A stretch of DNA of 39,203 bases from Spirochaetaceae bacterium. Its GTDB lineage: Bacteria > Spirochaetota > Spirochaetia > DSM-27196 > PWMO01. Location: positions 1 to 39,203 of the forward strand of contig REDM01000165.1 of the NCBI GenBank assembly GCA_007693485.1, read 5' to 3'. Shown piece by piece: positions 31,309 through 37,266 of the stretch. Numbering within the stretch: the stretch's first letter is position 1; each line of letters starts with the position of its first letter. The notes beneath the pieces were generated by a model, which searched no databases, was not told the origin of the DNA, and was given only the letters and a program-made list of their open reading frames with translations. The position numbers were made by a program, and so were the translations under genes.

Positions 31309-32325
31309 TCAAAAGGAGCGTCGCACCCGCTTGAAGTAGAAGGTGCGCGCGCGCTCGGCTGCGCAGAAGAGCGCCGCACGAAGCGGCTGCACGCGCGCGT
31401 CCCAGCAGCCGGCGCGGTGCACGATCCTGCCGCCAAAACCGGTCTTGAACCGGTAGAGCCCCGCCATCGGGTGCGCCGGATCGTCCGTTGGGGGAATGCC
31501 AAACAGGTCGTAGGTACGGCAGCCGTCCTCGCGCACCCGCCGCATCGCCTCCCACTGGACGGCGTAACTCGCCATCAGATTGCGCTTCACGTTGGACGAT
31601 GCGCCGTAGAGATAGGTCGCGGAGGCGCCCACCTGCGACACCACAATCCCGGCCAGCAGATCTCCTTCGTGTTCGGCGATCAGAAGCCGCAGCCGGACAT
31701 CCGGCTCCTCGTCCGCCAGATCAAAGAGTCGCTGATAGTATTCTCCACTGTGCAGGACGATGCGGTCACGCTCGGCGGTTTCCCGGTAGAGCGCGTACCA
31801 GCGGGGCAGAAACGAACCGGAAACCTCGCGGACGGTGACCCCGCGCTTTTCGGCGAGCCGGATGTTGTAGCGCGTCTTGGGCTTCATGCTGGAAAGCAGA
31901 TCGGTGGGTTGGGGATCAAGGTCAACCACAACGGTCGATGCGGGCTGAATGTCGACCGGCGCCCGACGCAGACCCTGCGAGGTAAGGCCCGGGGCGTCCG
32001 CCTCGTGGGCAAAGTCAACGCGGAGCAGGGTAAGCCCGGTGGGGAGCCGGTCAGGAAGCGCGGAGGTAAGACGCGTTGGCAGGGTTGCCACGGTGTCCAG
32101 CGGCTGATCGGCCAGCGGGTGCGGAAGATACCCCAGTGCAAACCCCGCGCGCATCCGACGGGTCAGCAGCAGCAGCGGCCGGTCGTCGCCGCCGACGCCA
32201 GTCACCCGAAACCGATGCGCCTCCCAGCCAAACTCGGACTTCAGCCGCGCCCAGAGCTCGGTCTGCAACAAGGTGGAGCCAGCGGGCAGTTCACCGGCGG
32301 AAACCGGGACAAGCTCGACGGCCAT
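31309..32325 (-). CDS. FemAB/FemX-family peptidoglycan peptidyltransferase-like (GNAT fold) protein
   Basis: LLSSMKPKTRYNIRLAEKRGVTVRE...YGASSNVKRNLMASYAVQWEAMRRVREDGCRTYDLFGIP...GLYRFKTGFGGRIVHRAG. Confidence 0.9.
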   Translation of the reverse strand: MAVELVPVSAGELPAGSTLLQTELWARLKSEFGWEAHRFRVTGVGGDDRPLLLLTRRMRAGFALGYLPHPLADQPLDTVATLPTRLTSALPDRLPTGLTLLRVDFAHEADAPGLTSQGLRRAPVDIQPASTVVVDLDPQPTDLLSSMKPKTRYNIRLAEKRGVTVREVSGSFLPRWYALYRETAERDRIVLHSGEYYQRLFDLADEEPDVRLRLLIAEHEGDLLAGIVVSQVGASATYLYGASSNVKRNLMASYAVQWEAMRRVREDGCRTYDLFGIPPTDDPAHPMAGLYRFKTGFGGRIVHRAGCWDARVQPLRAALFCAAERARTFYFKRVRRSF

Positions 32326-32331
32326 GGGTGT

Positions 32332-34533
32332 TCAGCCCACCGGGCCGTTGGGTACCACCGGTGCGGTAACCGCCTGCCCCGCGCACTCGATCGCGGTGTC
32401 ACCCACGGTCAGGACGCGATCCTTCACCCGCAGAGGGATCGCAAAGAACGAGTCGATATCGATCTGCGACAGGGTTTCCTCGGACGGGGTGTCGCCGTGC
32501 AGAGCGAGCCGGTCTCCCGGCTTCGCATGATCGACAAAGAGCACATCGACCTTCTTGCTGCCGTCTTCGTTGGTGCCCTCGGCTGCGAGCAGCATGCCGC
32601 GGCTTTCCACACCGCGAAGCTTTGCCGGCTTGAGGTTGGAGACCAGCACAATGGTATGGCCCACGAGCTCTTCTTCGGTGTAGTGCCCCACCAGCCCTGA
32701 GACAATGGTGCGTGGTTCGCCGCTGCCGTCATCGACCTGCTCAATGAAGAGCTTGTCGGCCTTGGGGTGGCGTTCCACCGCGGTGATTTTCGCCGCCCGC
32801 AGCTCCACGCGTTCGCGGAAGCGCTCTTCCATGGTCGGCTCGGCCGCCTTCTTTGCGGCGCGCTCGGCCTGCGTTCCCGAGAAACGCGCGCGAAGCTCTT
32901 CGATCGTCTCTGCCTCGACGATGGAGAACAGAATCGTGGGAGCAGAGACGGTGGTGATTCCGCCGAGGTTGCCCAGATCGTCCCAGGTGGTAGCGTTCAG
33001 ACCCAGAAACTCCCCGATCCGCACGGCGGTATCCGGAAGGTAGGGAGCAATCAGAATCGAGAGATCACGAATCAGATAGATGAGGTTCTTCAAAAGAACG
33101 GCCGTGGCTTCCGGATTCTCCTTTCGCGTCTTCCACGGTTCTGCTTCCTGGAACACCTTGTTTCCATAGGAAGAGAGGGCAAACACAGTACGGAAGGCAT
33201 CGCGCAGCCGGGCGCCCTCGAGGTAATCGGTGATCTCCGACTCCATGGTTCGCACCGTGTTCCAGAACTCCTTCCATTCGGGACTGGTGACCGTTCCCGC
33301 GCTGTCCTCCTCAGGAAGGCTGTTTCCAAAAAACTTGGTCTGGAAAGCGAGCGTGCGGTTGACCAGGTTCCCCAGGTTTCCAATCAACTCGCCGTTGATC
33401 TTCTCGCGGAAGTCGTCCCAGGTGAAGGTGAAGTCCGACGTCTCGGGGCGGTTGTAGTAGAGATAAAACCGCCAGACGTCGGCCGGGATTCCGGTCTCCT
33501 GCGCGTCCGTGCCAAACACCCCAACCCCGCGGCTCTTGGAGAACTGGCCGCCCTCGTAGTTCAGGTATTCTGAAGAGGACATATGGTGCAGAAGAGTCCA
33601 CTTCTCTCCGGTACCGATGAGCGAACTCGGAAAGATTACCGTGTGAAAGGGGATGTTGTCTTTTCCAATGAACTGAAACAGGTCTACCTGCTCGGGGTTG
33701 CGCCACCACGCTTCCCAATTGTCGGTGAGCGAGGCGGTAATCGAGATATAGCCGATTGGAGCATCAAACCAGACGTAGAACACCTTCTCCCGAAAACCGT
33801 CCAGCGGTACGGGGATACCCCACTTCAGATCACGCGTGATGGCGCGTTCCTTGAGGCCGTCGCGGATCCATGCCTGCGTCATCTGCACGGCGTTGCGGGC
33901 CCAGCGCCCTTCCTCCGCGGCCACCTTGAGCCACACTTCCAGCCTGGGCCTGATCTTGGGAAGGTCGATGTAGAGATGACGGGTTGTTTTCATCACCGGT
34001 CTCGTGTTGTCGATAAGACTGCGCGGATCGATGAGGTCGGAGGGGTCGAGGAGTTTACCGCAGTTCTCGCACTGGTCGCCCCGGGCGTCGGCGTACCCAC
34101 AGTGCGGGCAGGTTCCGCGCACGTAGCGATCCGCGAGAAACATCTGCGACGCCTCGGAGTAGAGCTGCTCGATCTCGCGCTCGACCACGTAGCCGTTCTC
34201 GTGCAGCTTCTGAAAAATATGCTGCGTGATCTCGGTATGGTTCGGGGCCGAGGTTCGCCCGAAGTGGTCAAACGAGATGTTGAACCAGCGGTAGATCTCG
34301 CTGTGGATCTCGTAGTACCGGGTGCAGAGCTCCTTGGGAGAGATACCTTCTTCGCGTGCCCGGGTTTCGGTAGCGGTCCCGTACTCATCGGTTCCGCAGA
34401 TGTAGAGCGTCTCGTAGCCGCGCAGACGGCAGAACCGTGCAAACACATCGGCGGAGAGAACCTGAATGAGGTTTCCCAGGTGCGGAATGTTGTTGACGTA
34501 TGGCAGTGCCGAGGTGATCAGTCGCTTTTTCAT
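32332..34533 (-). CDS. metG: Methionyl-tRNA synthetase with C-terminal tRNA-binding domain
   Basis: MKKRLITSALPYVNNIPHLGNLIQVLSADVFARFCRLRGYETLYICGTDEYGTA; CPHCGYADARGDQCENCGKLLDP; FSKSRGVGVFG (KMSKS-type); C-terminal VERHPKADKLFIEQVDDGSGEPRTIVSGL. Confidence 0.97.
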   Translation of the reverse strand: MKKRLITSALPYVNNIPHLGNLIQVLSADVFARFCRLRGYETLYICGTDEYGTATETRAREEGISPKELCTRYYEIHSEIYRWFNISFDHFGRTSAPNHTEITQHIFQKLHENGYVVEREIEQLYSEASQMFLADRYVRGTCPHCGYADARGDQCENCGKLLDPSDLIDPRSLIDNTRPVMKTTRHLYIDLPKIRPRLEVWLKVAAEEGRWARNAVQMTQAWIRDGLKERAITRDLKWGIPVPLDGFREKVFYVWFDAPIGYISITASLTDNWEAWWRNPEQVDLFQFIGKDNIPFHTVIFPSSLIGTGEKWTLLHHMSSSEYLNYEGGQFSKSRGVGVFGTDAQETGIPADVWRFYLYYNRPETSDFTFTWDDFREKINGELIGNLGNLVNRTLAFQTKFFGNSLPEEDSAGTVTSPEWKEFWNTVRTMESEITDYLEGARLRDAFRTVFALSSYGNKVFQEAEPWKTRKENPEATAVLLKNLIYLIRDLSILIAPYLPDTAVRIGEFLGLNATTWDDLGNLGGITTVSAPTILFSIVEAETIEELRARFSGTQAERAAKKAAEPTMEERFRERVELRAAKITAVERHPKADKLFIEQVDDGSGEPRTIVSGLVGHYTEEELVGHTIVLVSNLKPAKLRGVESRGMLLAAEGTNEDGSKKVDVLFVDHAKPGDRLALHGDTPSEETLSQIDIDSFFAIPLRVKDRVLTVGDTAIECAGQAVTAPVVPNGPVG

Positions 34534-34541
34534 AACTCGTC

Positions 34542-34571
34542 ACTATAGGTTTGCCCTGAACGGCGTGTCAA
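34542..34571 (-). promoter_or_regulatory. metG promoter TTGACA-18-TATAGT
   Basis: Minus strand -35 TTGACA (34571-34566), -10 TATAGT (34547-34542), ATG at 34533, 8 nt downstream of the -10. Confidence 0.7.
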
Positions 34572-34582
34572 GGACAGCACTC

Positions 34583-34612
34583 TTGACTCCGTGTGCACCG
34601 CTCACCTATAGT
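34583..34612 (+). promoter_or_regulatory. ABC operon promoter TTGACT-18-TATAGT
   Basis: -35 34583-34588, -10 34607-34612, same ACCTATAGTGA context as the divergent metG promoter. Confidence 0.7.
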
Positions 34613-34649
34613 GACCCTCATATTCATACACAAAAGGAGTGATGAAACC

Positions 34650-36200
34650 GTGAAACGAATTGTTTTTACTCTCGTCGCGACTCTCATCGTGCTCGGTCTG
34701 GTGGCATGCGGGCCCCAAGCCGCAGACACCGCCGCGGTCCGCGATACCCTGACCATCGCCATTGGCGCTGAGCCGGAATCGCTCGATCCCGTCAAGATGA
34801 CCTCTGCACCTGCCGCCACCGTTGGTGAGCACGTGGTTGAGCGTCTCATTTACATGGAAGAGGACGGTACCCTCACGCCGATGCTCGCCACCAGCTGGTC
34901 GGCCAACGCAGACAGCACCGTCTGGACCTTCGAGATCCGTCAGGGCGTCACCTTCCACGATGGAGCGCCGTTGAACGCGGAAGCGGTTCGTGCCAATCTC
35001 GCCCGGTTTGTGGATCCCGAAGTGGGTGCCGCCTACCGCTTCCTGCTCGGCAGCGTGCAGGACATTCAGGCAACCGGCGAGTATACCCTGCAGATCACGC
35101 TAGCCCAGCCCTTTGCCCCGATCCTGTCGCACCTCTCGCACAGCTTCATCGGCATTGTGAGCCCCAACCAGATCAGCGACCTCGCGGCTGACGGAACCTT
35201 CGAGATTCCCGTCGGTACCGGCCCCTACGTAATGGAACGATGGAGCCGCGGCGACAGCATCCGCATGAGCGTGAACGCAGACTACTGGGGACCAATACCG
35301 CAGATTCCCAACCTGGTCTTCAACTTCATCCCCGAAGAGTCGGCACGGATCGTGGCGCTCGAGACCGGGGAGGCGGACGCGATCATGGCCGTTCCCCCGC
35401 AGGACGTCGCCCGTCTGCAGCAGAACCCGGACATCGACGTAGTCTTCCAGACCACCGTCCGGACCATCTACATCAGCTTCAACAATATCCGCGAGCCATT
35501 CACCGATCAGCGGGTTCGCCACGCGCTGAACTACGCGATCGACAAGCAGGCTATTGTTGACTCGATCTTCGAAGGCAACGCCTTTGTCGCCGATGCACCC
35601 ATTGTTGACGCAGTCTTTGGCCACACCACGGTTGGACCCTACGAGTTCAATCCCGACCGTGCCCGCGAACTGCTCGCCGAAGCGGGATTCCCCAACGGCT
35701 TCGATATGGTCTTGCACCACCCCACCGGCCGCTATCCGCTCGATGCGACCGTTGCGCAGGCGGTCCAGTCCATGCTCGCCGACGTCGGCGTGAACGCCAC
35801 CCTTGAGACCCGCGAGTGGTCTGCCTACCTGCAGTTCACCTCGCAACCGCCGGATCGCGCCGAGTACGATTCGTTCATGCTCGGGTGGGGAACCGTGACC
35901 CTGGATGCCGATTACGGTCTTTTCGCACTCTTGCACACCCGGCAGTGGAACCCCAACGGCAACAACCGTGGGTTCTACTCCAACCCAAGGGTTGACGAGC
36001 TGCTTGATGCGGCCCGCATCGAGACCAACCCGGATCGCCGCCGCACCATGTATCATGAGGCGGTTGATCTGATCTGGGACGATGCTCCGTGGATCTTCCT
36101 CTACAACGCCGGACAGATCAACGCTGTGCGTTCGAACGTACAGGGACTGATCCATCACCCGCTCGAGAACCTGAGCGCCTGGGCAGCATCGTTCCGCTGA
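34650..36200 (+). CDS. ABC transporter substrate-binding lipoprotein, peptide/glutathione family (SBP_bac_5); GTG start
   Basis: Lipobox LGLVAC; TLTIAIGAEPESLDPVKMTSAPAATVGEHVVERL...WTFEIRQGVTFHDGAPLNAEAV...GTGPYVMERW; AAAGGAG upstream. Confidence 0.95.
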   Translation: MKRIVFTLVATLIVLGLVACGPQAADTAAVRDTLTIAIGAEPESLDPVKMTSAPAATVGEHVVERLIYMEEDGTLTPMLATSWSANADSTVWTFEIRQGVTFHDGAPLNAEAVRANLARFVDPEVGAAYRFLLGSVQDIQATGEYTLQITLAQPFAPILSHLSHSFIGIVSPNQISDLAADGTFEIPVGTGPYVMERWSRGDSIRMSVNADYWGPIPQIPNLVFNFIPEESARIVALETGEADAIMAVPPQDVARLQQNPDIDVVFQTTVRTIYISFNNIREPFTDQRVRHALNYAIDKQAIVDSIFEGNAFVADAPIVDAVFGHTTVGPYEFNPDRARELLAEAGFPNGFDMVLHHPTGRYPLDATVAQAVQSMLADVGVNATLETREWSAYLQFTSQPPDRAEYDSFMLGWGTVTLDADYGLFALLHTRQWNPNGNNRGFYSNPRVDELLDAARIETNPDRRRTMYHEAVDLIWDDAPWIFLYNAGQINAVRSNVQGLIHHPLENLSAWAASFR

Positions 36201-36220
36201 TTCAGTACGCAATCCGGTTC

Positions 36221-36266
36221 GCCCCCTTCCCCTCGGGGAAGGGGGCCATTCCGGCCTGAGGGCCGG
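36221..36266 (+). other. Two tandem perfect stem-loops between substrate-binding protein and permease genes
   Basis: GCCCCCTTCCCC-TC-GGGGAAGGGGGC (36221-36246) and CCGGCC-TGAG-GGCCGG (36251-36266). Confidence 0.75.
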
Positions 36267-36297
36267 GGTGACGTAGCGCGCTCGGTCGACGAGCCCG

Positions 36298-37266
36298 ATG
36301 CGACACCACCTTAAGCGGGAGATTCGTTCCTTGTACCAATACATCGCACGTCGGCTGATGCTCGCCATTCCGGTGGTCATCGGTGTTTCCATCATTGTGT
36401 TTTCTCTGGTCCGGTTGATTCCCGGTGACCCTGCGCGGGCCATGGCGGGTGTCAACGCAACACCGGATTTCATTGAGGCGATTCGCGTCCGCCACGCACT
36501 CGATCAGCCCATTCCCGTCCAGTACGCCCGCTTTGTGGTGCGGTTTCTGCAGGGCGACCTCGGAAACTCCATCTTCAGTGGACGGCCGGTCACCACCGAG
36601 ATCGGCGAACGCTTTCCTCGGACGCTCATCCTCGCGACAATCGCGCTGGTGATTGCGACGACGCTTGGGGTAACGGCCGGCATCATTTCGGCCACGCGCC
36701 GCAACTCACTCTTCGACAATGCAAGCATGCTGGTCGCGCTGGTGGGGGTGGCGGCGCCGGTCTTCTGGATGGCGCTGATGCTGCAGCTGCTCTTTGCGGT
36801 GCAGCTGCGTATGCTGCCGGCCACCGGTATCGGCACAATCCGCCATCTGGTGCTGCCGAGCATCACCCTGGGAACCGCGAGTGCCGCCCTGATGGCGCGC
36901 ATCACCCGATCGAGCATGCTCGACGTGCTTCGCCAGGATTTCATCACCACCGCCCGCGCCAAGGGGCTGGACGAGCGGCTGGTCATCTACAAGCACGCGC
37001 TGAAAAACGCGCTCATTCCGGTGGTCACGGTGCTGGGCCTGCAGTTTGGCATTCTGCTCGGCGGCGCGGTGCTCACCGAGACCGTCTTCGCCTGGCCCGG
37101 TGTCGGCAGACTGCTGGTAGACGCAATTCTGCGTCGTGACTATCCCGTCGTCCAGGGCACGGTCATGCTGCTTGCGCTGCTCTTCGTGCTGATCAACCTG
37201 GTGGTGGACATCATCTACGCCTTTCTCGATCCACGCATCCACTATCTGTCCGGAAGGGGGGAGTAG
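36298..37266 (+). CDS. Peptide ABC transporter permease (DppB/GsiC type); start may be TTG at 36331
   Basis: YIARRLMLAIPVVIGVSIIVFSLVRLIPGDPARAMAG...DFITTARAKGLDERLVIYKHALKNALIPVVTVLGLQFGILLGGAVLTETVFAWPGVGRLL. Confidence 0.95.
   Translation: MRHHLKREIRSLYQYIARRLMLAIPVVIGVSIIVFSLVRLIPGDPARAMAGVNATPDFIEAIRVRHALDQPIPVQYARFVVRFLQGDLGNSIFSGRPVTTEIGERFPRTLILATIALVIATTLGVTAGIISATRRNSLFDNASMLVALVGVAAPVFWMALMLQLLFAVQLRMLPATGIGTIRHLVLPSITLGTASAALMARITRSSMLDVLRQDFITTARAKGLDERLVIYKHALKNALIPVVTVLGLQFGILLGGAVLTETVFAWPGVGRLLVDAILRRDYPVVQGTVMLLALLFVLINLVVDIIYAFLDPRIHYLSGRGE

Follow-up and report, generated by a model that had tools for sequence, protein, structure and literature searches.

A conserved start-proximal promoter predicts a leaderless methionyl-tRNA synthetase mRNA in Spirochaetia

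The window analysed here, a stretch of 39,203 nucleotides from a Spirochaetaceae bacterium (contig REDM01000165.1), contains a metG gene with a near-consensus promoter whose -10 element lies 8 nt before the ATG, an arrangement from which we consider it very likely that the gene is transcribed as a leaderless mRNA and belongs to a stable group of genes of this type. The minus-strand layout reads TTGACA-18-TATAGT-8 nt-ATG, and a second promoter on the plus strand, TTGACT-18-TATAGT, faces away from it. Both promoters had been proposed in the original prediction; the coordinates proved exact, and the placement of the metG promoter is far beyond chance. The features of the locus are as follows.

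32332..34533, minus strand: metG, methionyl-tRNA synthetase, 733 aa, with its ATG start at the predicted mRNA 5' end (NF001100; start invariant in relatives)
34531..34541, minus strand: gacgagttATG (ATG 34533-34531), predicted transcription start at the A of the ATG or 1-3 nt before it, without a Shine-Dalgarno sequence
34542..34547 (34547-34542), minus strand: metG promoter -10 element TATAGT, 18-nt spacer, 8 nt ahead of the ATG
34566..34571 (34571-34566), minus strand: metG promoter -35 element TTGACA, kept as TTGAC in relatives
34539..34615, no strand: 34-nt inverted repeat with 25/34 matches (74%), a 9-nt centre and 12-nt perfect ends, formed by the two back-to-back promoters
34583..34588, plus strand: divergent promoter -35 element TTGACT, 18-nt spacer
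34607..34612, plus strand: divergent promoter -10 element TATAGT, followed by a 37-nt gap, containing AAGGAG, before the GTG at 34650
34634..34639, plus strand: Shine-Dalgarno sequence AAGGAG of the solute-binding-protein gene, in an ordinary leader
34650..36200, plus strand: ABC transporter solute-binding lipoprotein (family 5), GTG start (PF00496, 329 bits; NCBIfam)

A profile search identified the product as methionine--tRNA ligase (NF001100, 769 bits against a cut-off of 587). The canonical N-terminus, which had earlier been taken to make a misplaced start unlikely, was borne out: it is invariant in relatives, and the reading frame is closed by a stop at -9, so that no metG start can lie further upstream; together these rule out a misplaced start codon. 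No Shine-Dalgarno sequence was seen ahead of metG in the window. A riboswitch or T-box leader was likewise ruled out, given the 8 nt between the -10 element and the ATG and the absence of any match to an Rfam leader element anywhere in the window. Promoter-like sites in the region 32000-37000 number only two, the metG promoter and its divergent partner, with 0.8 expected, and a chance match at metG is ruled out by shuffled sequences and by the conservation described below.

To trace this arrangement we assembled 118 distinct metG upstream regions from Spirochaetia and a few outgroups, drawn from 30 relatives, 80 named genome contigs and genomes sampled across the phylum; sequences within one family are not independent of each other. 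A promoter 4-10 nt (mostly 6-9) ahead of the metG start was found in 98/118 of these, as against 1.2 expected from shuffled upstreams. It is present in all 26 of the 26 distinct readable sequences from the window's own order, in 57/65 named Spirochaetales and Treponema loci, and in 15/20 other genomes of the class; Alkalispirochaeta alkalica (L052, with an upstream identical to L023) and many Spirochaetales and Treponema genomes show the layout. Among the 98 upstreams carrying the start-proximal promoter, the start codon is ATG in 97 and a Shine-Dalgarno sequence occurs in a single one. The earlier prediction that metG is leaderless is thus strongly backed by conservation across families and orders. 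The layout is missing from four members of one family with small genomes (putatively Borrelia-like), from the 1.1-Mb genome L148 of another family and, outside the class, from those members of the phylum that were sampled, a number of which have a Shine-Dalgarno-like leader instead. Relatives lacking the start-proximal promoter include L065, L068, L074, L145 and L148.

Across the 75 strong metG promoters the mean pairwise identity is 80% for the -35 and 87% for the -10 element, whereas the spacer and the sequences upstream and downstream show 26-31%, close to chance. The neighbouring gene changes as well. An ABC gene was seen beside metG in just two genomes, that of the window and that of a relative sharing 95% MetG identity; many other families have a Band_7 (HflK-like) gene as divergent neighbour (profile-tested for L009 only), and elsewhere metG is preceded by a co-oriented gene. 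Given that the hexamers are kept while the flanks and spacer lie near chance and the neighbour changes, selection has held the promoter at this distance from the start codon. The comparison indicates that the layout is inherited and dates back at least to the ancestor of the window's order; it is probably older still within the class.

With a promoter of the housekeeping-sigma type, the -10 element 8 nt upstream would place the first transcribed base on the A of the ATG or no more than about 3 nt away. Bacterial polymerases tend to start on a purine (+1) that follows a pyrimidine (-1). We noted that the base at -1 of metG is a pyrimidine (T or C) in 90 of the 98 upstreams, as against 51-55% in Shine-Dalgarno-led ATG genes of two genomes, which together with the polymerase preference fits the A of the ATG as +1, with a leader of 1-3 nt as the alternative. 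A separation of 8 nt falls towards the upper limit of typical distances from -10 element to transcription start, so a leader of 1-3 nt is as likely as none. Taking the promoter distance and the -1 pyrimidine rule together, we infer that the mRNA most likely starts with the A of the ATG or has a leader of no more than about 3 nt. The pyrimidine at -1 may stem from another cause; for other groups, a pyrimidine pair ahead of the start codon has been reported as an atypical signal (PMC3160421). Over its first 60 nt the metG mRNA folds less stably than shuffled versions (z +1.6), and such weak 5' folding suits a leaderless message. On the features compared, namely -10 placement, absence of a Shine-Dalgarno sequence and an AUG start, metG has those of leaderless genes. 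A 5'-terminal AUG without a Shine-Dalgarno sequence, as predicted for the metG mRNA, is also what typifies the lambda cI model of leaderless 70S initiation in E. coli (review PMC9031893). By analogy, metG would be translated by the same route, with a 70S ribosome carrying fMet-tRNA binding the 5'-terminal AUG in place of Shine-Dalgarno pairing, and it would presumably share the dependence on fMet-tRNA known for leaderless messages in E. coli (PMC9031893).

Leaderless genes as such are not new to spirochaetes. Predictions based on a -10 motif (TANNNT) shortly before the start codon placed such genes in 6/18 Spirochaetes genomes, at a mean of 3.9% of genes, and described leaderless genes as being passed down within lineages (Zheng et al. 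2011, PMC3160421). metG resembles that class, in which the -10 element lies about 12 nt before the start and there is no Shine-Dalgarno sequence; that study offers genome-wide percentages, whereas the present case concerns conservation at one gene, and its main text mentions neither tRNA synthetases nor spirochaete genus names. dRNA-seq of Leptospira interrogans placed transcription start sites at most 10 nt from the start codon for about 430-450 genes (PMC5243855). This organism belongs to the same phylum but to a different class, ordinary -10/-35 motifs were not found there, and the main text of the study does not mention metG (PMC5243855). In the literature searched we found neither a conserved leaderless metG in spirochaetes nor leaderless leuS, ptsI or carD in this order, and the deep leaderless conservation at metG appears not to have been described previously. 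The gene offers a clean, testable case of leaderless initiation maintained over deep time in an essential translation gene, for which culturable free-living spirochaetes (e.g., Alkalispirochaeta) could serve as test organisms.

The notion that metG is the sole leaderless gene is ruled out by a sample comprising 402 kb from the window's genome and 400 kb from G011, in which genes were called without a trained gene finder, and by the conservation of leuS, ptsI and carD. In the window's genome the distances from -10 element to start codon are bimodal, with one group at 5-9 nt lacking a Shine-Dalgarno sequence, another at 15 nt or more often possessing one, and few between. Leaderless-type genes account for 26/186 first-in-unit genes (~14%) in the 402-kb sample, with 1.4 expected and none also having a Shine-Dalgarno sequence; they include metX, glgC, secA and hisD. 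The second genome of the order yielded 18 among 161 first-in-unit genes (3.2 expected). Within the order, orthologues are leaderless-type for leuS in 23/28 cases, ptsI in 20/21 and carD in 19/21; leuS had been chosen as a presumed leadered control. For gltX the figure is 4/27, showing that the method does not label every gene as leaderless, and the high values for the first three genes beside this low one indicate an inherited trait that differs from gene to gene. Across the wider class it is kept by carD in 13/21, by metG as given above, and by leuS in 6/23. The original view that a leaderless essential synthetase would be striking is accordingly weakened, as leaderless-type genes form a regular class including leuS, secA, ptsI and carD. 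The data indicate that an appreciable fraction of the genes opening a transcription unit here do without a Shine-Dalgarno sequence, and spirochaete start-codon annotation and expression design should allow for leaderless genes.

Several further observations concern promoters in this genome and order. In the window, the gene of a BrnT-type toxin (PF04365; start 4195, minus strand) has TTGACA-18-AATAAT-8 nt-ATG and appears leaderless-type, as does hisD (start 20764, plus strand) with TTGACG-17-TACCGT-9 nt-ATG. A third leaderless-type gene (start 23505, plus strand; TGGACA-17-TATGAT-6 nt-ATG) encodes a 192-aa protein with a macrodomain-like N-terminus, of which a 40-aa piece had no match in Pfam. 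The ptsI promoters of the order (L240-L269) share TTTGAC around the -35 element, one base beyond the hexamer. Strong TTGAC/TATART promoters (L111, L112, L118) also precede apparent tRNA genes in the window's genome, and among the 20 strongest promoter matches TATAGT is as frequent as TATAAT.

Given that MetG charges the initiator tRNA, its leaderless mRNA might form a dedicated control loop in which expression tracks initiator-tRNA charging. In E. coli, translation of leaderless messages is strongly stimulated by fMet-tRNA (review PMC9031893), and class-wide metG keeps its layout more often than leuS does. However, the same genomes contain many unrelated leaderless genes, and within the order leuS, ptsI and carD come close to metG in conservation, so no property peculiar to metG is required; moreover, the loop would be positive and not homeostatic. 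We regard such a loop as unlikely, and equally doubt that the leaderless state was selected across many Spirochaetia families as a sensor of initiator-tRNA charging that couples MetG synthesis to initiation capacity. The link between MetG and its own leaderless mRNA is an attractive, unproven idea.

It is also quite improbable that metG is mainly expressed from another, leadered promoter, with the start-proximal one minor or accidental. The relatives noted above that lack the start-proximal promoter would accommodate this, and by sequence alone a second, weaker start further upstream is conceivable. Yet the region 32000-37000 offers no promoter-like site besides the two described, the DNA upstream of metG belongs to the divergent gene, metG has no Shine-Dalgarno sequence, and all 26 distinct sequences of the order keep the promoter at a near-fixed distance amid chance-level flanks. 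Transcription from the start-proximal promoter, giving a leaderless mRNA, remains the preferred reading.

The plus-strand promoter would be the ordinary leadered promoter of the ABC operon that adjoins metG in this lineage, the family-5 solute-binding lipoprotein gene being the first gene of a peptide/nickel-type ABC operon. Its Shine-Dalgarno leader had been correctly anticipated, with AAGGAG lying within the 37-nt gap before the GTG. The 11-nt perfect inverted repeat reported between the two promoters is present; its arms, ACCTATAGTGAC, are in fact 12 nt long (34539-34550 and 34604-34615) and form the ends of the longer 34-nt repeat. Outside the promoter consensus the similarity is not beyond chance, with the spacers matching at 10/18 positions. 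The partner promoter with the repeat was found only in G000 and G005, and the metG promoter is kept elsewhere without the repeat. The repeat is explained by, and may be taken as a by-product of, two near-consensus promoters with equal 18-nt spacers. That it is instead the operator of a regulator co-controlling metG and the ABC operon is highly improbable: the perfect arms, the overall match and the spacer agreement would suit an operator, as would retention of the repeat in the nearest relative with 11-nt arms, but metG spacers of several other species match the plus spacer equally well (9-10 of 18), the 11-mer has no copy in the window's genome beyond these two places, and the same metG promoter stands elsewhere beside an HflK-like or co-oriented gene with the ABC neighbour missing. 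Since the repeat is accounted for by the promoters, unique in the genome and next to a neighbour that is not conserved, the suggestion of a shared regulator site is not supported.

After the Shine-Dalgarno sequence of the solute-binding-protein gene there is a three-codon frame, ATGAAACCGTGA (34642-34653 of the window), whose stop codon shares bases with the GTG start (GTGA); L002 shows this arrangement too.
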